A stretch of 64,000 nt of DNA from Methanomassiliicoccus sp. (GTDB lineage Archaea > Thermoplasmatota > Thermoplasmata > Methanomassiliicoccales > Methanomassiliicoccaceae): NCBI GenBank assembly GCA_018262895.1, contig JADFDJ010000004.1, forward strand, positions 62,001 to 126,000, given 5' to 3'. Positions 9,197 through 23,021 of the stretch are shown here, piece by piece. Numbering within the stretch: position 1 is the stretch's first letter; each line of letters starts with the position of its first letter. Made by a program: the position numbers and the translations under genes. Under the pieces are notes generated by a model, which was given only the letters and a program-made list of their open reading frames with translations, had not been told where the DNA came from and made no database searches.

Positions 9197-9669
9197 TTGA
9201 TCATCCTCACAGTCACATTATCGGACCGTTCTCTCCAAGATATGAACCGATGAATCATTATGATATCGAGCGCCTAGTCCTGTACGTTCAAGAACGCACA
9301 TACATAAAGTACCAGTAGGGTCTTCGAAACTCGTGGCTCTGTATCACTGCGTGACAATTACCTCGAAAGATAAATAACCCCTAGCCTCATGGTTTTTCCC
9401 GTTCAGATGTACATTGCACATATCTCTAAAGGGCGATCCGAAATGGTACCAGGGGCCTGGATTGAAGAGCTTATGAACTTTTTGTTCATAACCAGGTGCA
9501 GGCCTCTGTTCGAGGATGCGCTGCGATCCGTAGTGTGTAGGCCAACACCGCCTGCTGGGTCGACAACGGACAGGTTTGTTTCCAGTCAACTTCAGGATAC
9601 ACGGCCCTCCCTTGGGAACGCAACGAGATGCGATTTTTCATCGGCCATTCATTCTCGGAGGCGAGCAGC
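9197..9669. other. gap between divergent genes, holding promoters and a hairpin
   Basis: About 470 bases between the divergent methyltransferase and histidine kinase genes. It holds a TATA-like GATAAATAAC near 9368-9377 on the plus strand, an 8-bp inverted repeat at 9471-9491 and a 94-codon plus-strand frame (9389-9673). That frame overlaps the kinase start in another phase and has no recognisable content, so I do not call it a gene. Confidence 0.4.
9471..9491. repeat. 8-bp inverted repeat upstream of the histidine kinase
   Basis: TTATGAAC (9471-9478) and its exact reverse complement (9484-9491) flank a TTTTT loop. An outer CCTGG/CCAGG pair (9457-9461 and 9492-9496) extends it imperfectly. 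It lies downstream of the TATA-like box and about 180 nt before the kinase ATG, so it could be a leader hairpin or an operator. The role is inferred. Confidence 0.35.
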
Positions 9670-12600
9670 ATGAGCTCTGCAGGTTCAGGTCCTAACGTAG
9701 ATCACGATATAGATGGTTCGAAGAAACATCTGACCTCTAAAATGGAACAATTAACAAGGCAGGCCATCAAAAGAAGGCTGTCCCGGGACCGCAACGAGGC
9801 GAAAGGGAGAGAGCCGGACGAACTTCAGGGTCCGGTCCTTACTGGCTCATGGATATATACTGTAGGAGCTGACAACGGTCGTATCTGGGTCTCGGAGGGG
9901 ATCGGAAGGATCTTCGGGATAATCGTGCCGGATGATGGATATGTACCGATAGAGACCATCAGTCGTTGCATCCCTGACCGAGAGAAGGTTCGACTTTCAC
10001 TGAGCGAGCTGTTCAATGATAGAAAGGAACACGATATGGAGTTCGAGGTGGTGCCTGCCGATGGTGGGCTCAAGAAGATCGTGCTCTCCGTGGCGGACAT
10101 AATGGAGGAGACCGAAGGGACGAGCGTGAGGATCTCGGGGACCATTTGGGACATCACCGACATCCTTCTTCTGGACTCCAGGATGCGCCGGCTGAACCGT
10201 GAGCTGATGGCTATCAAGGAATGCGCTCGTGCGGTAATAAAGGCCAGGAACGAGCAGGAGCTGTGGGACTCAATTTGCCGGATCGTCTGCGATATCGCTG
10301 GATATCGGTTGACCTGGGTGGGGTTGGCGGAGCACAATGATGGGAAGGACATACGCCCGGTGGCCTGGAGCGGTTACAACGAAGATTACGTTCTGAGCGT
10401 CAGAGCTACATGGGGTGATGATGAGAGGAGTACTGGACCAGCGGGCAGGAGCATCAAGACCGGACGGACAACGTTCATACAGGACGTGTTGAACGATGAC
10501 AGGTATGACCTTTGGCGGGAGCATGCCTTGAAGAACGGTTACCGCTCCTTGATCGCCATCCCTCTGATGGACAGTGGGGAGGCGTTCGGTGCCCTGATGA
10601 TCTACTCTGACAAGACCAATGGGTTCACCTCGGAAGAGGTGGAGCTCCTGGAGGAGATGGCGGGAGATCTTGCTTTCGGGATCGTCACATTGCGGATGAG
10701 GAGGGAACGGGAGAAGGCCATGGATGCCCTGAAAAGAGTGGAAGCCCGGAACCGTACGTTGTACGATCTTTCCCAGATGACGGGGGCTACATCCAAAGAC
10801 CTTACTGAAAGGGCGTTGAACAGCTGCATCTCACTGTCAGAAAGCAAGTTGGGCTTCGTGGCCTTCGTGAACGAGGACGAGACCGCCTTGACCATGCATA
10901 ACTGGTCTAAACAGGTTATGGAAGAATGCATGGTGGCTAACAGGCCCTACTTATATAGGATGGAGGAGACGGGGTCGTGGACGGAATCGTTGCGCCGGAG
11001 AAGGCCGGTCATAGTAAATCATTACAGCGAACCTCACGCCAACAAGAGAGGCCTGCCCCTAGGTCACGTGAAGATCGAGCGCTTCATGACCGTTCCCGTT
11101 TTCGACCGAAGCCACATAGTGGCGGTCCTGGGCGTGGCTAACAAAGAAAGCGACTACACTGAGGAGGATGCGACCGACCTGTCCCTTCTAATGGACGGGA
11201 TGTGGCGCATCGTGCGTAAGCTAAAGGCCGAGGAGGAGCTGAAGGAGCATCATAACCTCCTCAACTCCTTCGCCGAGAACATCCCCGATGCCATCTACAT
11301 AAAGGATCTCGATGGTAGGTACCTTATGATGAATCCCGGAGGGGCCGCTCTCCTGGGGATGGAAAGCAAGGATGTGCTGGGAAAGGATGATGAGGCTCTC
11401 TTCGGCGCCGAGGTCGCCGCCCAGCTCAGGGGCGAAGACCGGGAAGTGATCGAGGAACGCCAAGCTAGGTTCTACGAGGCTACAAACATTATCAGGGGTC
11501 GCAGGACGACATACTCGACCTGGAAGGCGCCTTATATGAACTCCGATGGAGAGGTCATCGGGATGATGGGGTATAGTCGTGATATTTCCGAGAAGAAGGA
11601 GGCCGAGGAAGCCCTGCAGCGTTCGGAGCAGATGCTGAAGATCGTTATCGATAACTTCCCCGGATTGGTGTTCTGGAAGGACCGAAACCTTGTCTACCTG
11701 GGTGCGAACAAGGAGTCGGCCACCAATGTGGGCTTTGAGGACCCCTCAGAATATGTCGGAAAGACCGACTATGACCTACCCTGGGCCGAGACCGAGGCTG
11801 ATGCATACAGGGCGGATGACATCCAGGTCATGGAGAGCGGGATACCCAAGCTACACATCATCGAGAGGCAGCAACGACTTAACGGTAAGTTCGGCTGGCT
11901 GGACACAAGCAAGGTCCCGCTCCGGGATAAGGATGGTAAGGTCGTCGGGATATTGGGCACGGCCACCGATATCACGGAGAAGAAGAGGGCGGAGGATGCC
12001 CTGCGGCAGGCCAACCTCATCGTGGAGAATAGCCCGGTGATGCTGTTCCGCTGGCGTGCCGAGGATGGCTGGCCGGTGGAGCTGGTATCAAACAACATCA
12101 CTCAGTTCGGTTATGAACCCCAGGAACTGCTGGATGGATCGATCAAATATGCGTCGATCATACACCCTGATGATCTGGGACTCACCGCTGAGAAGGTTGA
12201 CGAGTGCGTTAGAAGCGGGATCGATCAGTTCGAGCAGGTCTATCGCATCAGGACCAAGGACGGGCATTACCGATGGGTGGAGGACCGCACGGTGGTGGAG
12301 CGCGGTGCCGATGGCGGGGTTACCCACTACCAGGGCATCGTGATCGACATCACCGAGCGGAAGCTGGCTGAGCAGGGCTTGCAGGAAAGCGAGGAGCGGA
12401 ACCGCAGGCTGCTGGGAAGGTCGTTCGACGCCAGGATCACGCACCGTGACGGCAAGATCATCTTCGCCAACGATACGGCGGCAAGGCTCATTAGGGCCGA
12501 GAGCAAGGAGGACCTTATCGGCAAGGACCTGGTCGAGTTCCTGACCGGTGAATCCAAGGAAAAAGCGGAAAAGAGGATTCAACAGCTGTATGCTAAACCT

Positions 12601-15153
12601 GGGACCGTGGTGCCTATCATCGAAGAACAGTTCATTTGCTTCGATGGGGACATCATCGACATCGAGGTCACGGCCGCGAGCTTCCTCGAGGGAGGAGAAC
12701 CGACCGTTGAGGTGGTGTTCCGGGACATATCCGAACGTAAGCGCATCCAGGAGGAGCTGAGAAGGAGCGAGGAGAAGTTCAGGGGTCTGGTCGAGAACGC
12801 ACCGTACGCGATGCTCATCATCTCAGATGACAAGATAAAATACCTGAACCCGGCCGCCATGGAACTGTTCGGCGCTTCATCAGCAGATGACGTCCTGGGC
12901 ACCAAGATCTCGGACCGCGTCGATCCCCGGTTCAGACCTTCGTTGAAGAGGCGGAAACACCAGCTCGAGGTCGAGAAGAGGCCCACGGAGAAGACGGACG
13001 AGGTGTATATCAAGCTTGACGGGACACCGGTCGATGTCGAGGTCGCCGCCGTGCCTTACCGGTTCAACAATGATGATGGGTCCATGATAATCCTGCGGGA
13101 CATCACGGACCGGAAGCGGGCCGAGGAGGCGCTAGAGAAGCGCATACTGGCGTTGACCAGACCTCTGGACGAGATGGAGGACATCGTCTTCGAGGATCTC
13201 TTCAACATATCAGAGCTCCAGCACCTGCAGGACCTGCTTGGAAAGGCCTGGGGGGTCGGGGTCCTCCTGACCCGACCGGACGGTACCCCTATCACCCGTC
13301 CCAGCAACTTCACGTACTTTTGCACGGAGTTCATTCGCAAGAGCGAGAAAGGGCGCATGAGATGCCAAACGTCCGACTCGATCATCGGACGTCATAATCC
13401 CTCTGGACCGACGATCGAGCGTTGTTTGAGCGCCGGACTGTGGGGGGCGGGAGCGAGCATCACCGTCGGCGGCCGCCATATCGCTAACTGGTTGATCGGC
13501 CAGGTCCGGAATGAAGCTCAGACCGAGGAGGAGATGGTGGAATATGCCCGGGAGATAGGAGTAGATGAGGCTAGGTTCCGTGAGGCCTTCCTCCAGGTGC
13601 CTGTTATGTCCACGGAGAGGTTCGAGCACATCGCGAACACCCTCTTCGCTCTGGCCAACCAGCTCTCCTCTATCGCCTACCAGAACATACAGCAGGCGCG
13701 CTTCATCGCCGAGCGCAAAATGGCTGATGACGCTCTCCGTGAGGCCAACCTCATCATGGAGAACAGCCCAGTGATGCTGTTCCGCTGGAGGGCGCAGGAG
13801 GGATGGCCGGTGGAGCTGGTATCCAAGAACATCGTGAGGTTCGGTTACGAGCCGGAGATGTTCCTCAATGGTTCATTGCTCTTCTCTGACATCGTACATC
13901 CCGATGACCTCGATGGCATCAAGGCCGCCTTAGATGATAAGATCAGTCAGGGCGAGGACAGCTACGAAGGCATCTACCGTATCCGCAGCCGGGACGGAGC
14001 CTACCATTGGGTGGACGAGCGCACCTTCCTGGAGAGGGATTCCGAAGGGATGGTGACCAACATACAGGGTATCTTAATAGACATCACCGAGAGGGTGGAG
14101 GCAGAGAAGCGACTTCAAGCGATCAATGATGCCCTGAAGGAGGGCGAGGAGAAGTATCAAGAGCTCTTCGAGCTAGGAAGCGAGGCCGTGTTCTTGATCG
14201 ACAACGGAACGGGGAAGGTCCTCGAATGCAACACCGCTGCCAGCGAGATGTACGGCTATAGCCACAAGGAGCTCCTGGAATCAAATACGCGCGACCTCTT
14301 GGTAAAGAGGGCGGAGTCAGAGAGCAAGATGATCGAGAACAGGAACGGTAGTGTGATTATACCTCTGGAATACCACCGTAGAAAGGACGGCCGGATGTTC
14401 CCTGTGGAGATCAACAGCCGGTACTTCACATGGAAGGGGAATAACGTTCACGTGGCTGCGGTCAGGGACATAACGGAGCGGATCAGGACGTCCGAGGCCC
14501 TTCGCCAGGTCAATAAAAAGCTGAACCTCCTGAACAACATCACGCGGCACGATCTGAAGAACCAGATGACCGCCCTCACGGGCAACCTGGCACTGGCGAA
14601 ATTGAAGAGAGCGGACCCTTCGTTCGATGTGTACATGGAAAAGGCCTTGGCATCGGCGGACAGCATGACCGCCATCATCAAGTTCGCCGAGGCTTACGAG
14701 GAGATAGGCGTTCGCGAAGCCATATGGCATGACCTGAAGACCCTGGTCATCGACAGCGTTGGGGACGTCCCACCGAGCAAGCTACGGATCATCAATGATG
14801 TTCCAGCGGGGATAGAGGTTTTCGCCGATCCACTCATAAAGAAGGTCTTCTACAATCTCATCGATAACGCCATCCGTCACGGTGAGAAGGCAACGACCGT
14901 ACGCTTCTCCGTGGAGAAGGTCGATGGGGTTCACACCATCGTCTGCGAGGACGATGGTCTGGGCATCTCTGCGGACATACGGAGCAAGCTGTTCAATAGA
15001 GGTTTCGGGAAGAACCATGGCCTGGGTCTCTTCCTATCGAGGGAGATCCTGGCCATAACCGATATAACCATGACCGAGGAGGGCGAGCCGGGAAAGGGGG
15101 CTCGCTTCGTCATGTCCGTGCCCAGGGACGGGATACGGGGCGTGTATCTGTAG
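9670..15153 (+). CDS. large multi-PAS/GAF/PocR sensor histidine kinase
   Basis: A soluble sensor of about 1827 residues with no obvious membrane segment. Approximate domains in order: PAS (55-173), GAF (180-345), GAF (355-515), PAS (525-650), PAS (652-775), PAS (777-905), PAS (905-1027), PAS (1030-1153), PocR-type ligand-binding domain (1156-1350; Cys-rich, e.g. FTYFCTEF and MRCQTSD), PAS (1355-1485), PAS (1493-1610), then the kinase. The phospho-acceptor His is near 1627 in TRHDLKNQ. The ATPase has an N box (NLIDNAIRH), G1 (EDDGLGIS) and G2 (GLGLFLSRE). Start ATG 9670 is chosen because GGAGG lies 8 nt upstream; ATG 9628 has no such site. It has no receiver domain. A stand-alone receiver is encoded at 33 kb, but pairing is unproven. 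Confidence 0.93.
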   Translation: MSSAGSGPNVDHDIDGSKKHLTSKMEQLTRQAIKRRLSRDRNEAKGREPDELQGPVLTGSWIYTVGADNGRIWVSEGIGRIFGIIVPDDGYVPIETISRCIPDREKVRLSLSELFNDRKEHDMEFEVVPADGGLKKIVLSVADIMEETEGTSVRISGTIWDITDILLLDSRMRRLNRELMAIKECARAVIKARNEQELWDSICRIVCDIAGYRLTWVGLAEHNDGKDIRPVAWSGYNEDYVLSVRATWGDDERSTGPAGRSIKTGRTTFIQDVLNDDRYDLWREHALKNGYRSLIAIPLMDSGEAFGALMIYSDKTNGFTSEEVELLEEMAGDLAFGIVTLRMRREREKAMDALKRVEARNRTLYDLSQMTGATSKDLTERALNSCISLSESKLGFVAFVNEDETALTMHNWSKQVMEECMVANRPYLYRMEETGSWTESLRRRRPVIVNHYSEPHANKRGLPLGHVKIERFMTVPVFDRSHIVAVLGVANKESDYTEEDATDLSLLMDGMWRIVRKLKAEEELKEHHNLLNSFAENIPDAIYIKDLDGRYLMMNPGGAALLGMESKDVLGKDDEALFGAEVAAQLRGEDREVIEERQARFYEATNIIRGRRTTYSTWKAPYMNSDGEVIGMMGYSRDISEKKEAEEALQRSEQMLKIVIDNFPGLVFWKDRNLVYLGANKESATNVGFEDPSEYVGKTDYDLPWAETEADAYRADDIQVMESGIPKLHIIERQQRLNGKFGWLDTSKVPLRDKDGKVVGILGTATDITEKKRAEDALRQANLIVENSPVMLFRWRAEDGWPVELVSNNITQFGYEPQELLDGSIKYASIIHPDDLGLTAEKVDECVRSGIDQFEQVYRIRTKDGHYRWVEDRTVVERGADGGVTHYQGIVIDITERKLAEQGLQESEERNRRLLGRSFDARITHRDGKIIFANDTAARLIRAESKEDLIGKDLVEFLTGESKEKAEKRIQQLYAKPGTVVPIIEEQFICFDGDIIDIEVTAASFLEGGEPTVEVVFRDISERKRIQEELRRSEEKFRGLVENAPYAMLIISDDKIKYLNPAAMELFGASSADDVLGTKISDRVDPRFRPSLKRRKHQLEVEKRPTEKTDEVYIKLDGTPVDVEVAAVPYRFNNDDGSMIILRDITDRKRAEEALEKRILALTRPLDEMEDIVFEDLFNISELQHLQDLLGKAWGVGVLLTRPDGTPITRPSNFTYFCTEFIRKSEKGRMRCQTSDSIIGRHNPSGPTIERCLSAGLWGAGASITVGGRHIANWLIGQVRNEAQTEEEMVEYAREIGVDEARFREAFLQVPVMSTERFEHIANTLFALANQLSSIAYQNIQQARFIAERKMADDALREANLIMENSPVMLFRWRAQEGWPVELVSKNIVRFGYEPEMFLNGSLLFSDIVHPDDLDGIKAALDDKISQGEDSYEGIYRIRSRDGAYHWVDERTFLERDSEGMVTNIQGILIDITERVEAEKRLQAINDALKEGEEKYQELFELGSEAVFLIDNGTGKVLECNTAASEMYGYSHKELLESNTRDLLVKRAESESKMIENRNGSVIIPLEYHRRKDGRMFPVEINSRYFTWKGNNVHVAAVRDITERIRTSEALRQVNKKLNLLNNITRHDLKNQMTALTGNLALAKLKRADPSFDVYMEKALASADSMTAIIKFAEAYEEIGVREAIWHDLKTLVIDSVGDVPPSKLRIINDVPAGIEVFADPLIKKVFYNLIDNAIRHGEKATTVRFSVEKVDGVHTIVCEDDGLGISADIRSKLFNRGFGKNHGLGLFLSREILAITDITMTEEGEPGKGARFVMSVPRDGIRGVYL

Positions 15154-16573: not shown

Positions 16574-18535
16574 TCAAGCACGCGCTCTTCCTGTGATCAT
16601 GTCCTTCTCGTCCCTGAACGATGTGGCGAGAAGCATCATGGACATGCCTGCTATCAGCAGCGCAGAGCCCAGCCAAACACCGCTCACCATCGGCAGCAGG
16701 CGGACCTGCACCAAGGCAGACTCATTGGCCATCCAGTCGTAGCTGATGTATAGGTCCTCGGACAGTCCGTTCAGGACCTGGGTTCCGCCATGGACCAGCA
16801 AGGACCCGGAATAACCGTCCTCATAGTGATTGGACACCGAGACCGTTCTCGCTCCCCCGCCCCCGGTGACCTCGAAGGTGGCCGTGCGTACCTCGCCCGG
16901 CACCCCGGCGGACGATGTCCACGGCTCTGTCGTCAGACCCAGCAGCCTGACCGTGCTATCTCCCAGCGAGACCTGGTCTCCAATGCCCATGATCTCCCTG
17001 TCCTCCGGCAGCGAGGACTGGTAGTATGAAGAGACCACGAAGCTAAGCACCACCACTATCAGGCCCAAGTGGGCCAGGATAGGCCCTGCCCTTCTGACCC
17101 ATCGTCGCGCCGGAGAGCGTTCCGTTCTCACCAGGCGGTAAAGGGATGCGGCAAGCGTCGCCGCTGCCGGCGGGAGGATGAGGGCAACAGGCAGGGGGAT
17201 GCTCCCTGTCGCCAATGAGACCAGCGCAAGGAGGATGGACACCAGGCCTACGGCCGTTCCGAGCATGAAGGCCTTGCGACGGCCTAACCTTGGTGAAGAT
17301 TCTATGATCAGGAGAGCTATGAGCATTATCGCCAGCAAATAAGCGGTCTTCTCGGTGAACTCCATGAAGTTGTCCCCCTGGTCAAGACCGACGTTCTTAA
17401 CGAGGAGCAGTACCAGAAGGACGGAGAACATCATGTGGAGTGCCACTATGCCCAGGATGCCATCCTCGACCCGCGTGTGCACCCTCCTTGACATTCGGTA
17501 GCCGAGGACTGAACCGAGGACCAGTAGGAGCACGATGACGATGAACAGCCCCATGATGCTCTTGTCCCCCTCGATGACCGTGAGGAAGCGGGACGCCATA
17601 GAGCCGCTCACCGAGCTTCCGTAGGTGTGCACCGAGGAGCCCCAAAGCCCCCCGGTACGGGTTATGAAGGAGGACAGGAGGACGTACACGAAGGAGAGCA
17701 TGCCCAGGAAGGGCAGCAGATATCCATGACGGGCAGCGGGGGACCGGTGCGCATGCAGGAATGCCATGACGGCAAGCATGGGCAGCAGGGAGGCGGTCTC
17801 CACCGGGTCCCACACCCAGTACCCTCCCCACCCGAGCTCATAGTAGGCCCACACCGCACCCACCAGGATGCCCATGACCAGCAGGAGGCCCGCCAGCCTT
17901 GCCCAGGGAAGGGCCACTTTGAGCCAATCATCCTCGAGCGTGAGGAATCGGGCGAGGGACGCGGAGAATATGGCCATGCAGAAAGCGTAGGCCGCAAAGA
18001 CCAAGGGGGGATGGAGGGCCATCTCCAGGGTCTGCAGGGACATGCTCATGCCCATACCCTCAGGATGAAGTGCAAGTTCAGAGGGCGCGGTCAGGGCGAA
18101 GAGGTCGGCGGCCATGACTATAAGGGCGAAGAGGAGCACCATGCTCCCGGCGGCCGTACGGAAAGCCGAAGAGAACCTCCGACCAAGCCCCCGTCGCCCT
18201 TCCATAAGGGTCTCCACGGCCAAGGCGAGGGACATGAACCATGCCCACAGCAGGAGCCCGCCCTCGCCGCCGGCCCACACCCCCACAAGCTTGTAGAACG
18301 GGTCGATGCTTTGGGATGAATGGGACCACACGTACTCGGTGTTCAGATCGGATGCGAGGAACAGATAGGCCAGGATGGAGAGGGTCGCGGTGAGCAGGGC
18401 GAATGATATGAGGGCACCGTATCGCGAGATGTGCTCCCATCGCCGGTCCCCACGCCCCAGTGATAGGCCCCCACCGGCACTGGCCGCAAGGGCTGACACG
18501 GCCGCCGCCGCAAGGAGCACCTCTCCGATGTTCAT
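16574..18535 (-). CDS. ccmF: CcmF-like cytochrome c maturation protein
   Basis: A 653-residue membrane protein with about 14-15 hydrophobic segments. It carries the tryptophan-rich heme-handling motif WGGYWVWDPVE near residues 235-245 and conserved His positions (for example ALHPPLVFAAY near 173), as in CcmF/NrfE heme lyases. These proteins attach heme to apocytochrome c outside the membrane. The C-terminal part has a soluble extracytoplasmic domain of about 110 residues before the last helix, as in CcmF. It is the third gene of a minus-strand set, starting 4 nt after the NapH-like gene ends. No CcmA, B, C or E is in the window. The organism would need those elsewhere, or CcmF has another job. 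Confidence 0.88.
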   Translation of the reverse strand: MNIGEVLLAAAAVSALAASAGGGLSLGRGDRRWEHISRYGALISFALLTATLSILAYLFLASDLNTEYVWSHSSQSIDPFYKLVGVWAGGEGGLLLWAWFMSLALAVETLMEGRRGLGRRFSSAFRTAAGSMVLLFALIVMAADLFALTAPSELALHPEGMGMSMSLQTLEMALHPPLVFAAYAFCMAIFSASLARFLTLEDDWLKVALPWARLAGLLLVMGILVGAVWAYYELGWGGYWVWDPVETASLLPMLAVMAFLHAHRSPAARHGYLLPFLGMLSFVYVLLSSFITRTGGLWGSSVHTYGSSVSGSMASRFLTVIEGDKSIMGLFIVIVLLLVLGSVLGYRMSRRVHTRVEDGILGIVALHMMFSVLLVLLLVKNVGLDQGDNFMEFTEKTAYLLAIMLIALLIIESSPRLGRRKAFMLGTAVGLVSILLALVSLATGSIPLPVALILPPAAATLAASLYRLVRTERSPARRWVRRAGPILAHLGLIVVVLSFVVSSYYQSSLPEDREIMGIGDQVSLGDSTVRLLGLTTEPWTSSAGVPGEVRTATFEVTGGGGARTVSVSNHYEDGYSGSLLVHGGTQVLNGLSEDLYISYDWMANESALVQVRLLPMVSGVWLGSALLIAGMSMMLLATSFRDEKDMITGRARA

Positions 18536-18539
18536 CGCT

Positions 18540-19820
18540 TCACTCCGACCGTAGCTCTCGGCGATCTCCCAGGAGCCGGGTGCGCAGCGACGACAAGGCG
18601 GCCTTCAATCTGGTGGACATCCGGGACAGCAGCATTCCGCCGTACAGCAGAGGGATGGCCACGGCACATGCCCCCCCAAGAGGGCACGCGGCGCATCCCG
18701 TGGCCGCACAGGGGCCGGTGAACATGTATGCGAGGGGTGCCGTGGCCGCAGCCAGCACGAAAGCGCTCGCGGTGCGGACCCTTGATATAGCGTCCTTGAC
18801 CTTCTTGTGGATCTTCTCCCCGGTGCTCCCGTAGGCGCCGCGGTAAGCATTGAAGGAGCAGTTGTTGATGCACTCCCTGCAGCCGTTGCACAGCGTCGTC
18901 TCGATCTTACCATCCATTCCTATGGCCCACATGGGGCAGTTGACATCGCACTTCCGGCAGTTTCGGCAGTTGGAGGCCTCGTACTCCAGGCGGTAGAAGC
19001 CCAGCTTGGCACCTATGGCATGGGATATGCCCGAGATCGCCCCAAGGGGGCAGAAGAACAGGCACCATCCCCGCCCTCCGACCATCATTATACCTCCAAG
19101 TAGCAGCCAGACTATCAGGGTCAGCACGGCCCCGGCGTTCCAGAAGTTCTCAGGGGCTGTGGAGAACAGGCCTAGCGACATGTACTCCATTAAAGCAGGG
19201 CTGCAGAACCTACCCATGTCCACCCCGTAGGAGCACTGGGCCACCGGGCCAGCCATCGCCCATCCGACTAAGATGAACCCAGCCAGGAAGCCATATCGCA
19301 GGCTGGCGGTGACCTTGGTGTTCTGGATGCGCATGCGGTAACGTTCTGGGATGGGGACTATCCTGCTGAGCATCTCGCTCATGGCCCCCACCGGGCACAG
19401 CCTCCCGCAGAACAGCGGGCCGAAGAGGAGCGCGACCACCAGGATAGCCCCTATGGTGATGAGGGCAATAGGGCCGATGCTCGCCGGAACTGACCCAGTG
19501 ATCAGCAGCTCCATTGGCAGCTTGAAGCATACAGAATGAATCGTCGCCTCATCAGTTGACCCCGTTATGGAGTATGCCAGCCTGGTGAACACCGCAAAGG
19601 GGGCGATGAACAGGAAGAAACCTGCTATCAGACCCAGGTACCGTTCGCTGTTCCGCCACACCGTTTTCGGCACCTTCAGCTTGACGCGTCCTGCCGCCGG
19701 CCGCTCAGGCTCTGGCAGACGGACGTTCGGCACCTCCGAACGGGAACGGCCCTTCAAGGGGCCAGGGAGCTTGGATTTATCAAATGTGAGGGTCTTTTTC
19801 AGAGGGTTCCTCAATGCCAT
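18540..19820 (-). CDS. NapH/NosR-like membrane ferredoxin
   Basis: A 426-residue protein with a soluble N-terminus, then membrane segments. Two conserved Cys-Pro motifs of the NapH/NosR/CcoG family sit at membrane edges: CGRLCP (138-143) and CLFFCP (253-258). Two 4Fe-4S sites follow, CxxCxxCxxxCP (285-296) and a similar one at 311-321, then two further membrane segments with an extra Cys-rich stretch (CAATGCAACP, about residues 379-388). The family moves electrons between quinols and periplasmic or extracytoplasmic acceptors. The gene overlaps the preceding exported CxCH protein by 10 nt and is followed 4 nt later by ccmF, so all three are probably one transcript. Confidence 0.88.
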   Translation of the reverse strand: MALRNPLKKTLTFDKSKLPGPLKGRSRSEVPNVRLPEPERPAAGRVKLKVPKTVWRNSERYLGLIAGFFLFIAPFAVFTRLAYSITGSTDEATIHSVCFKLPMELLITGSVPASIGPIALITIGAILVVALLFGPLFCGRLCPVGAMSEMLSRIVPIPERYRMRIQNTKVTASLRYGFLAGFILVGWAMAGPVAQCSYGVDMGRFCSPALMEYMSLGLFSTAPENFWNAGAVLTLIVWLLLGGIMMVGGRGWCLFFCPLGAISGISHAIGAKLGFYRLEYEASNCRNCRKCDVNCPMWAIGMDGKIETTLCNGCRECINNCSFNAYRGAYGSTGEKIHKKVKDAISRVRTASAFVLAAATAPLAYMFTGPCAATGCAACPLGGACAVAIPLLYGGMLLSRMSTRLKAALSSLRTRLLGDRRELRSE

Positions 19821-20773
19821 CTGTTCTTTCTCCTCAGCTCCATAATGCCAATGGCGAATATGAAGCCGACCACGATCAAGAACCCGATATCGGCAAGGGT
19901 AAGATCGAACTGCTGTATCGGCGCGATCAACGCCGCCTGGTTGCTAACGGTCACATCGACCTCCTTGGACACCGTCTCCCCACTGGTGGTTATGGCGGTG
20001 ACCTTGATCTTGTGCTCACCGTCCTGAAGGTCGGAGGTATCGACCGTCCAGGTGTAGGAGGAGCCGTCCGTGCTGTCGACCACGGAGCCATCGATCTCGA
20101 GGTTGGCAGAGGTGATGTCCACGGCCTCGCTGGCGGCCACTGTGGCGTCGATGGTGACGCTGCCGCTCAAGGTGGTCCCGTTGACGGGGGTGAGTATCGA
20201 CAGGAAGGTGGAGGCGTCGTTGGAAGAGGAACCATCCTGGACAGTGAAGGCCATGCCGGCGGAGTAGTCCTTGTAGTATGCGATACCATCGGCGCTGTTC
20301 TCCATCCTGGCATACAGGGAGTACACTCCAGGCTTCTCAGGCGCTTCCAGGGTCCATACGAACTCGGCGCTACCCTTGTATGCGGTGATCTCATTGTAAT
20401 TGTACTGCGTGGACCAGGTATCGGACACTATGACCCAGCCAAAGTCAGTGGGCATGGTGTTACCCCCGCTTAGCTTGGACACGATCATAACGCCCAGGGG
20501 GTTGTTCTCAGCCTCCCCGCCGGTGACGGTAACGGTGACAACGACCTGCTCGCCTGGAGCGAGGATGGTCTGGGACGCGGACATGCTGACGACGGCACTA
20601 CTAACCGCGCCATGGCAGCTGCAATCGCCTGCCTGAAAATTGCTATTGCCGCCACCCCCGGCCCATCCGGTGACAGGCGTTAAGAGTAGTGTAACCACGA
20701 AAGCTACGGCGGCCAGAGCCAAAAGGTATGGTCGTCTGCTCAATTTAACCGTCCCCACGAACAGTACGAGCAC
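19811..20773 (-). CDS. exported membrane-anchored protein with CxCH motif
   Basis: A 320-residue protein. The N-terminus has RR then a hydrophobic core and an AG cleavage-like site (about residues 12-39), and the C-terminus has one membrane helix (about 290-312) followed by basic residues. Just after the signal peptide is CSCH (C51, C53, H54). This resembles the CxxCH-bearing start of the choice-of-anchor-V family, but with one residue instead of two between the cysteines. Residues 60-175 look like that family's beta-sandwich and 190-280 like a Big/Ig-type domain. Start is GTG 20773, with a TATA-like GATATTTA upstream. First gene of the operon with the NapH-like ferredoxin and CcmF. Heme binding is inferred. 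Confidence 0.78.
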   Translation of the reverse strand: MLVLFVGTVKLSRRPYLLALAAVAFVVTLLLTPVTGWAGGGGNSNFQAGDCSCHGAVSSAVVSMSASQTILAPGEQVVVTVTVTGGEAENNPLGVMIVSKLSGGNTMPTDFGWVIVSDTWSTQYNYNEITAYKGSAEFVWTLEAPEKPGVYSLYARMENSADGIAYYKDYSAGMAFTVQDGSSSNDASTFLSILTPVNGTTLSGSVTIDATVAASEAVDITSANLEIDGSVVDSTDGSSYTWTVDTSDLQDGEHKIKVTAITTSGETVSKEVDVTVSNQAALIAPIQQFDLTLADIGFLIVVGFIFAIGIMELRRKNRWH

Positions 20774-21056: not shown

Positions 21057-23021
21057 GTGGCAACGATCCTTATCACCTCGATGATGGTACTTTGCTCTAA
21101 CGGACCAGCCATGGCTGCGGAGGAACCTTCGACATGTGCTTTTCTGATCGATTTCGGAAACGGCAGGATACTCTGGGCCGATGTTCCTGTCGCCGAAGGC
21201 ATGAACGGATTCGAAGTGTATGAGAACGCCACGGCCATGCTTGGCCTGGCCGAGACCAATGCATATCAACCGCCGTATGGCCACTACATCACGAGCATCG
21301 ACGGCTACACCAGCACCATCAACTACTCCTGCCCCGTGTGCCCTTATGATATCTGGAGGCTGCTCAAGTGGAGCGATGAGGTCGATGGGTGGACCTGGAC
21401 CTCCACCATGATCGATAGCATAGACCCCCTCGCCACCAGAGCCATCGCCCTTATGTTCACGCGGTATCCGTACGTGGGGCCTCCGACGGCCACGCCGCAG
21501 CACCGGGACCCGTGGATAAGCGAGAGGCATGATTTCCTGAACTCCGGGAGCGCCCTATCGTACAGTGCTTCGGGGGTGGATATGAAGTGGCGTCTGGACC
21601 TCGGCAACGGGGCCATCGACGTCCCTGTCATCTCCGGGGCCGGGCGGCTTTATGCCCTCAGCAGCGGCGTCCTTAATAGAACCACGGACACTTACCAGAC
21701 CAGCTCCAAGCTCTTCTGTTTCGCGCAGTCCGGCGACGTGCTGTGGCAGGAGGAAGTGGGCAGTGGTCATCAGGACGCTGCACCCCTGCTGTGGGACGGG
21801 ACGGTGTACGTGCACTCCGCAGACGGGATCCTATATGCATTCAATGCCGAGAACGGCTATCTGAAGTGGACCTACTGTACGGGGAAGACCGATGGCAATG
21901 TCACATCTCCCATCGTCTGCAACAACCTCATCATCATCTCCGGTAACCCCGGGGAGATGCTGGCGGTAACTAGGTCCGGCACCCTGAACTGGTCGATGAT
22001 CGTTCCCTCGACGTTCGCATCCTCCCCCGCGGCCTTTCAAGACCTGCTGCTTGTAGGTGGAGAGGACGGCAAATTGTACGCTATGGCGGCAAATGGAAGC
22101 GGCGAGCTATGGAACGTTACCGTAGGCGGCACCATAACCGGCTCCCCAGTAGCACTGGATGACAGGATAGTTATCACCTACACCAATGTATCTGAAGGCA
22201 CCCCCATAGGCGGGGGTATGGCCGCGGTATCGTACTATGGGGAGCTTATATGGGAAGCCCCTACCGCCCACACTCCAGGTTCTGCGGCGGTGACGCCCGA
22301 CGGTGTGGTCTCCGTGTCCTCTCACGGGATGACATCGGTATCTCTCGACGGTCAACCACAGTGGACCGCACCCCTTAATTCCACCGATCCCGGGGGATCT
22401 CCCCTGGCGATCAATGGCATGACCTTGGTGGTGACCAAGGAGGACAGGAGCCGGCTTCTGGCCGTCAACAGCCATGGATTTGTGGAGTGGGAAAAGGTCA
22501 TAGAACCCGCCCAGACCATAGCCAGTTCGCCTTCCATCTCCGATAACGTCCTATATCTGGCATCGTCCGAAGGGAGCGTTTACGCATTCTTCTTAGAGGA
22601 TCAGCAATGGGTCGTTCCTCCAGTGAGCTCCTTCGCCTACACGGTTAACGGTACCACGGTGCACTTCGACGGCAGCCTATCCTACGGAGGAGAAGGGGAG
22701 CTCGTCTACAACTGGTCATTCGGGGATGGTCAGACGGCCACCGGAGTGAGCGTCGACCACACCTACGAGAACAAGACCGACATGAAGGTGACCCTGATCG
22801 TAACCGACTCCGCTGGCCTGAAGAGCGAGCTGACCAAGATGGTCGTATTGGGATGCTCGACGCAGGAACCGGGTCTTGAGCCCGGCGCGACATCCGATGA
22901 TGCCTCCACCCCGTCCGGAATGTTCCCTGGATGGCCGATATGGGGAACGGGGATCATCGCGCTGGTGGTAATCCTCGCGTTGACCCTGGGGATCAGAAGG
23001 GCAAAGGAAGGGAAGAAATGA
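21057..23021 (+). CDS. secreted DUF4430-like / PQQ-propeller / PKD protein with C-terminal membrane anchor
   Basis: A 654-residue protein. A short signal peptide (about 1-21, ending AMAA) precedes a domain of about 110 residues resembling DUF4430, with a CPVC motif near 95. Residues 150-520 hold repeated PQQ-like beta-propeller blades (for example LYAFNAENGYLKW and LYAMAANGSGELW). Residues 530-605 form a PKD domain (NWSFGDGQ). A linker and one membrane helix near 630-648 end the protein. GTG at 21057 is used; a few upstream codons in frame (LIKGT) would fit a longer signal peptide, but only with a CTG start. The gene is divergent from the cytochrome-like operon. The propeller could bind a protein or a cofactor; no catalytic residues can be named. 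Confidence 0.75.
   Translation: MATILITSMMVLCSNGPAMAAEEPSTCAFLIDFGNGRILWADVPVAEGMNGFEVYENATAMLGLAETNAYQPPYGHYITSIDGYTSTINYSCPVCPYDIWRLLKWSDEVDGWTWTSTMIDSIDPLATRAIALMFTRYPYVGPPTATPQHRDPWISERHDFLNSGSALSYSASGVDMKWRLDLGNGAIDVPVISGAGRLYALSSGVLNRTTDTYQTSSKLFCFAQSGDVLWQEEVGSGHQDAAPLLWDGTVYVHSADGILYAFNAENGYLKWTYCTGKTDGNVTSPIVCNNLIIISGNPGEMLAVTRSGTLNWSMIVPSTFASSPAAFQDLLLVGGEDGKLYAMAANGSGELWNVTVGGTITGSPVALDDRIVITYTNVSEGTPIGGGMAAVSYYGELIWEAPTAHTPGSAAVTPDGVVSVSSHGMTSVSLDGQPQWTAPLNSTDPGGSPLAINGMTLVVTKEDRSRLLAVNSHGFVEWEKVIEPAQTIASSPSISDNVLYLASSEGSVYAFFLEDQQWVVPPVSSFAYTVNGTTVHFDGSLSYGGEGELVYNWSFGDGQTATGVSVDHTYENKTDMKVTLIVTDSAGLKSELTKMVVLGCSTQEPGLEPGATSDDASTPSGMFPGWPIWGTGIIALVVILALTLGIRRAKEGKK

Follow-up and report, generated by a model that had tools for sequence, protein, structure and literature searches.

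A conserved Methanomassiliicoccales operon pairs a lone CcmF with an exported C-S-C-H protein and a NapH-like Fe-S protein

In Methanosarcina, CcmABCEF are all required, act together and are inherited in an all-or-none manner within the genus (PMC9084895), while a 2021 survey found CcmCF in none of 12 Methanomassiliicoccales (PMC8351635). Heme attachment sites that depart from the usual motif can have dedicated lyases, including NrfE (CXXCK), NrfI and a Wolinella factor for CX15CH (reviewed in PMC3601427). Here we describe a three-gene operon in a 64,000-nt stretch of DNA from a Methanomassiliicoccus sp. genome (the window) that resembles each of these systems in part. It has in common with the archaeal pathway of Methanosarcina acetivorans (CcmABCEF, System I*; PMC9084895) a CcmF with the WWD motif, and in other Thermoplasmata the likeness extends to CcmE with a CxxxY-type end and to client genes beside Ccm. 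In contrast to Methanosarcina, within which the set is reported to be all-or-none, CcmB, CcmC and CcmE were not found in the genome studied here. The likeness to NrfE, NrfI and the Wolinella factor is that a lyase of the CcmF/CcsA type has its gene next to that of a single client whose site is unusual (PMC3601427). NrfE, however, is an additional paralog that accompanies a general Ccm set and is matched to CXXCK, whereas this genome has no second PF01578 protein and the sites at issue are CxCH, CxAH and CxFH.

The three genes lie on the minus strand from 20773 to 16574 and encode an exported protein (cxch), a NapH-like membrane Fe-S protein and CcmF, spaced as the single operon that the initial annotation had described (Table 1). 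Their order is the same in all six readable loci of the genus (the window, G001, G003, G004, G005 and G006; Methanomassiliicoccales), and the letters DCSCHG around the site are identical in every one. The exported gene is absent beside the CcmF of G002, probably only because that CcmF is the terminal gene of a 3-kb contig. Pairwise dN/dS within the genus spans 0.08-0.42 (cxch), 0.12-0.34 (napH) and 0.12-0.36 (ccmF), so all three genes are under purifying selection. Conserved order, conserved motif and these dN/dS values together show that the arrangement is not due to chance. The source genome is 2.34 Mb in size and 99.66% complete. The divergent neighbour of cxch adjoins it in other loci of the genus too and is at most a candidate member of the system.

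Table 1. Positions of the operon, its surroundings and related genes in other loci. Positions without a locus prefix are those of the window.
Feature	Position	Strand	Remarks
cxch	20773-19811	minus	320 aa; GTG start
C-S-C-H codons (C51-S-C-H54)	20612-20623	minus	residues 51-54
NapH-like membrane Fe-S protein gene	19820-18540	minus	426 aa; 10 bp overlap with cxch
CcmF gene	18535-16574	minus	653 aa; starts 4 bp past the NapH-like gene
Divergent neighbour	21057-23021	plus	exported beta-propeller (PQQ_2/BamB-like) and PKD protein
Large protein upstream of an MFS gene	9628-15153		1841 aa; resembles, by eye, a multi-PAS sensor kinase
CAGTSKH paralogs of G040	L040:6562-8604, L040:9347-10276		beside a complete Ccm cluster
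DUF2231-like membrane protein	L040:8605-9303, L041:8323-9027, L042:8492-9169, L073:3678-4385, others		~230 aa; follows the CxnCH gene in 17 copies
Methanomethylicota exported protein	L108:4328-4921, L109, L110, L111:9441-10034, L114-L117		~195 aa; directly upstream of the NapH-like gene
Small membrane protein with GPC..xC..CP.GG.C	L037:2933-3277, L038:6488-6889, L039:14557-14892, L109:10887-11102		directly after the NapH-like gene
Radical-SAM proteins	L123:2812-4332, L124:2601-4067, L125:2761-4257		~490-510 aa; AhbC- and AhbD-like, below both cut-offs
Radical-SAM protein of G153	L079:7026-8237		resembles AhbC at 196 bits; two genes downstream of the lone-CcmF/CGGSCH/DUF2231-like locus

The cxch product begins with a hydrophobic helix (residues ~14-31), just past which lies the C-S-C-H site, as first noted; a choice-of-anchor-V-like domain (~60-180), a Big_7 Ig domain (~190-276) and a C-terminal TM helix (~293-317) follow. 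Judged from these predicted parts, it is an exported, C-terminally membrane-anchored Ig-domain protein. Its score against choice_anch_V (NF041895) is 38.8 bits, just below the cut-off of 42, with Big_7 also matched; its relatives at L092, L096 and L099 pass the NF041895 cut-off. With choice-of-anchor V it shares a Cys/His site right after the signal helix and then an Ig-like domain, but it differs from that family in its sub-threshold score, its Big_7 domain and its C-terminal TM anchor. An AlphaFold model (pLDDT 87) shows the N-terminal helix, a well-predicted CSCH loop, two Ig-like domains and the C-terminal helix. The best Foldseek matches of this model are only Ig/FnIII-type folds, with no heme protein among them and no clue to a cofactor, and the exported domain had no match when its sequence was searched against solved structures. 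Our literature search found nothing on CXCH heme sites or on choice-of-anchor proteins with CXXCH. The site is CSCH and not the CXXCH by which c-type cytochromes are recognized; its His54 is invariant in 14 of 14 alignment rows (genus and relatives).

Using a profile of the N-terminal domain, we detected it in 25 of 400 genomes of the class at E ~1e-6 or better, and by this similarity it falls in a broader family of the Thermoplasmata that is akin to choice-of-anchor V. The proposed link to choice-of-anchor V therefore stands as a relation, though not with CxxCH as the usual form of the site: the spacer ranges from 1 to 5 residues across this archaeal family, and CX3CH is commonest. Homologs carry CxxCH (CDNCH, CTNCH, CIGCH, CGGCH), CX3CH (CGTSCH, CGGSCH, CSTNCH), CX4CH (CAVTGCH, CGNGACH) or CX5CH (CGFQPGCH, CGGGGSCH) at the same site; CxCH recurs outside the genus (CSCH, CICH, CTCH), and a few homologs have xxxCH. 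Two paralogs of G040 read CAGTSKH, with Lys adjoining the His where the second Cys would stand.

Several of these genes have Ccm surroundings. They adjoin CcmA, CcmC, CcmE and in some cases CcmF at L040, L075, L077, L080, L089, L090 and L096, and the CcmE of these clusters mostly has a C-x-S-K-Y end, the archaeal CxxxY type. A membrane protein distantly like DUF2231, with a conserved H..T.E.H.G, usually comes next after the clustered family gene and is a candidate for an electron partner in the membrane. PF01578 (the CcmF/CcmC family) exceeded its cut-off in 30 genomes of a 400-genome draw of the same kind, and it is present in 24 of the 25 that bear the exported domain (Fisher 6.5e-32, ignoring relatedness). 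Because genome relatedness is not corrected for in this figure, the count by genus is the safer one (12 of 13 genera, Fisher 5.9e-13). The sole exception, G017, has a family member with ATSCH and a DUF2231-like partner, and no CcmF. Homologs occurring mostly without CcmF would have spoken against the initial annotation; the co-occurrence is the reverse of this. Mainly because of it, and with several members lying beside Ccm gene clusters, we regard the exported-domain family as probable Ccm clients.

The members from the genus form one clade with those of G050, G054 and G040-C38 (support 96/95) among CxnCH relatives, in a tree that was midpoint-rooted only and built from an alignment excluding the motif residues. 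All nine clade members have a NapH-like partner in place of the DUF2231-like one. At the site, G050 has CSFH, and G054 and G040-C38 have CSAH, so that the Cys adjoining the His is lost. The anticipated conservation of CxCH thus holds throughout the genus (6/6) and breaks down in the three nearest relatives beyond it; likewise, CcmF and the NapH-like gene stay beside the CxCH gene throughout the genus, and outside the clade the partner is usually DUF2231-like. As read from the alignment, the partner swap and the site change coincide, and what is conserved in the branch is C-S-x-H, i.e. the first Cys and the His.

The NapH-like protein has two CxxxCP Fer4_5 motifs and two 4Fe-4S motifs, which, like its membrane location, it has in common with NapH/MauN-type ferredoxins (TIGR02163). 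It matches Fer4_5 (PF12801) at 49.2 bits, above the cut-off, which puts it among the NapH-like Fe-S membrane proteins, but reaches only 47.6 bits against the NapH model TIGR02163 (cut-off 213). It also differs from the NapH/MauN type in an extra C-terminal Cys-rich part and in having its nearest relatives outside the order in Methanomethylicota (41-48% identity). By these scores and motifs the second gene product is NapH-like, as proposed, and not NapH. Its Cys columns are invariant in eight rows. In the genus its C-terminus reads GPC..GC..CPLGGAC; other lineages encode this part as a separate small gene, whose product (GPC..xC..CP.GG.C) is thus fused to the NapH-like C-terminus in the window's genus and matched no Pfam family in the two copies scanned.

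The Methanomethylicota relatives lie beside an unrelated exported protein that mostly ends in SCH, GCH, CCS or CCG, in most copies as a Gly-rich tail followed by GGSCH, GGGCH, CCS or CCG; the copies scanned had no Pfam or NCBIfam match. No PF01578 protein exceeded the cut-off in the eight Methanomethylicota genomes that carry these relatives, and a NapH-like protein is therefore not by itself a pointer to heme. The initial view of NapH-like proteins as electron carriers to such cytochromes is corrected by these relatives in CcmF-free genomes: the protein is not tied to cytochromes.

The third gene product matches PF01578 at 80.1 bits (cut-off 29.9) and has a homolog in the CcmF structure 6zmq (E 1e-18), which bears out its assignment as CcmF. 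Its WWD motif is WGGYWVWDP, and the four heme-ligand His (175, 261, 303 and 489) are invariant in every row covering the column. The curated bacterial model TIGR00353 gives 163 bits against a cut-off of 569; by that model the protein is thus CcmF-like, and by Pfam, motif and ligands it is CcmF. As the only PF01578 protein found in its genome, it leaves that search with no CcmC, and the lack of a second, CcsA-type PF01578 protein there rules out System II (CcsBA). PF03100 detected no CcmE in this or the other genus genomes, while the same model does match in G040. For CcmB the genome yielded no convincing match, only weak ABC-2 permease-like ones; the 31.7-bit match was rejected, as PF01061 scores it better and it adjoins a DrrA-type ATPase and a CbiM-like gene. 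ABC ATPases are too unspecific for CcmA to be assigned by that feature alone. Within the sensitivity of these models, the suggested search for Ccm partners therefore returns CcmF and neither CcmB, CcmC nor CcmE.

The same holds more widely. Near-complete genomes of the genus (97-99.7%) each have one PF01578 protein and no CcmE, as do G050, G054 and G060, where the single PF01578 protein is CcmF; in G040, of the same order, CcmB, CcmC, CcmE and CcmF are all found by the same models. The lone CcmF adjoins its client, in the same operon in the genus and divergently in G054, G060 and G153; in G050 both genes lie at contig ends, which fits the arrangement seen in G054. The clients in G060 and G153 carry CDNCH and CGGSCH. 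Gene absences are less certain in these two genomes because they are 78% and 88% complete, and the CcmE search in G153 covered its locus only. A lyase gene next to one odd-site client, as in the role of NrfE, is thus found in all six genus loci and in G054, G060 and G153. This pairing strengthens the earlier idea of a dedicated system for the single-residue spacer, in which heme binding is still what we infer.

Models of AhbC and AhbD gave no convincing match in the source genome, most of the genus, G040, G050, G054 or G060; strong AhbC matches occur in several genomes of the class that have full Ccm. We rejected an AhbD identity for ~300-bit matches in G005, G009 and G017, where each match is a single protein of ~490-510 aa that scores 211-236 bits against AhbC as well and falls below both cut-offs. 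Since neither AhbC nor AhbD is recognisable in G040 despite its full Ccm set, and methanogens that use heme without synthesizing it have been reported (PMC8351635), external heme is a possible source.

We favour, with a probability of about 0.5, a dedicated, stripped-down heme attachment to the C-S-x-H site. The operon would then code for a cell-surface Ig-domain protein together with the electron partner and the dedicated heme lyase that serve it. The N-terminal CxnCH (n = 1-5) would be the heme-attachment site of a Thermoplasmata family of Ccm clients; in the NapH-linked branch this site would have become C-S-x-H (CSCH in the genus), and the usual DUF2231-like membrane partner would have been swapped for a NapH-like Fe-S protein. 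CcmABCE and heme synthesis appear to have been lost in most NapH-linked members, leaving one CcmF beside one client. CcmF would draw on extracellular heme, or on heme from some chaperone, and link it to the client through one or two thioethers, the His serving as iron ligand. The NapH-like protein would then either pass electrons to this heme or hold the thiols of the client and the heme of CcmF in the reduced state. A more specific proposal, that CcmF can dispense with CcmABCE and act by itself as a heme attachment enzyme in methanogens without their own heme synthesis, joining heme or another tetrapyrrole to C-S-x-H with electrons from the Fe-S membrane protein, is tentative and on the doubtful side.

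Several observations argue for heme attachment: same-site homologs from CxCH to CX5CH beside CcmA/C/E, the PF01578 co-occurrence, the lone CcmF adjoining its client, the retained WWD motif and four heme-ligand His, the invariant His54, the purifying selection, the place of the CSxH clade among CxnCH relatives, and the heme users without heme synthesis among methanogens (PMC8351635). Others point away from it. CcmE, CcmC, a convincing CcmB and AhbC/AhbD were not found, although CcmABCEF are required in Methanosarcina (PMC9084895); Ala or Phe replaces the Cys adjoining the His in the sister lineages; the best fold matches include no heme protein; Methanomethylicota have NapH-like relatives in PF01578-free genomes; and G017 has its ATSCH member without CcmF.

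The main alternative takes up these latter points. In the NapH-linked branch the NapH-like protein might serve a former heme site that has come to hold a redox centre (Fe-S or another kind), a metal ion or a reactive thiol, with CcmF kept for another job, for example another tetrapyrrole or thiol reduction. Its strongest point is the loss of the second Cys in CSAH and CSFH, since known single-Cys cytochromes c retain the Cys that adjoins the His. The missing CcmB/C/E and AhbC/D agree with it, as does the pairing, in Methanomethylicota, of NapH-like relatives with an unrelated exported protein and no CcmF. We nevertheless consider such reuse somewhat unlikely, as the CcmF retains every heme-ligand His and the WWD motif and adjoins its client in lineages with and without NapH, and as the lone CcmF of G060 and G153 (78% and 88% complete) pairs with CDNCH and CGGSCH clients. 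That a full pathway is present, its CcmB/C/E and heme synthesis too diverged or hidden in assembly gaps, would account for steps that are essential where studied (PMC9084895) and for the weak CcmB matches (31.7 bits). This is improbable, however, given that the same models detect CcmE, CcmC and CcmB in G040, a genome from the same order, that the near-complete genus genomes agree in having one PF01578 protein and no CcmE, and that the weak CcmB match is better read as a PF01061 permease in its DrrA/CbiM-like surroundings. Decay of a lost cytochrome c pathway would fit the missing partners and the absence of the second Cys from the sister lineages, but with three intact genes in the complete genus loci, dN/dS of 0.08-0.42, and conserved gene order and heme-ligand residues, we give it very little weight.

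A conserved lone CcmF with one client provides a test of whether CcmF acts without a heme chaperone, and of whether heme is handled at all in methanogens that are considered to have no cytochromes c. The exported-domain family is a natural spacing series, running from 1 to 5 residues and then to loss of the second Cys, that bears on how much of CxxCH is needed. The CcmF operon described here may represent an unusually reduced form of heme attachment, or machinery reused for something else.
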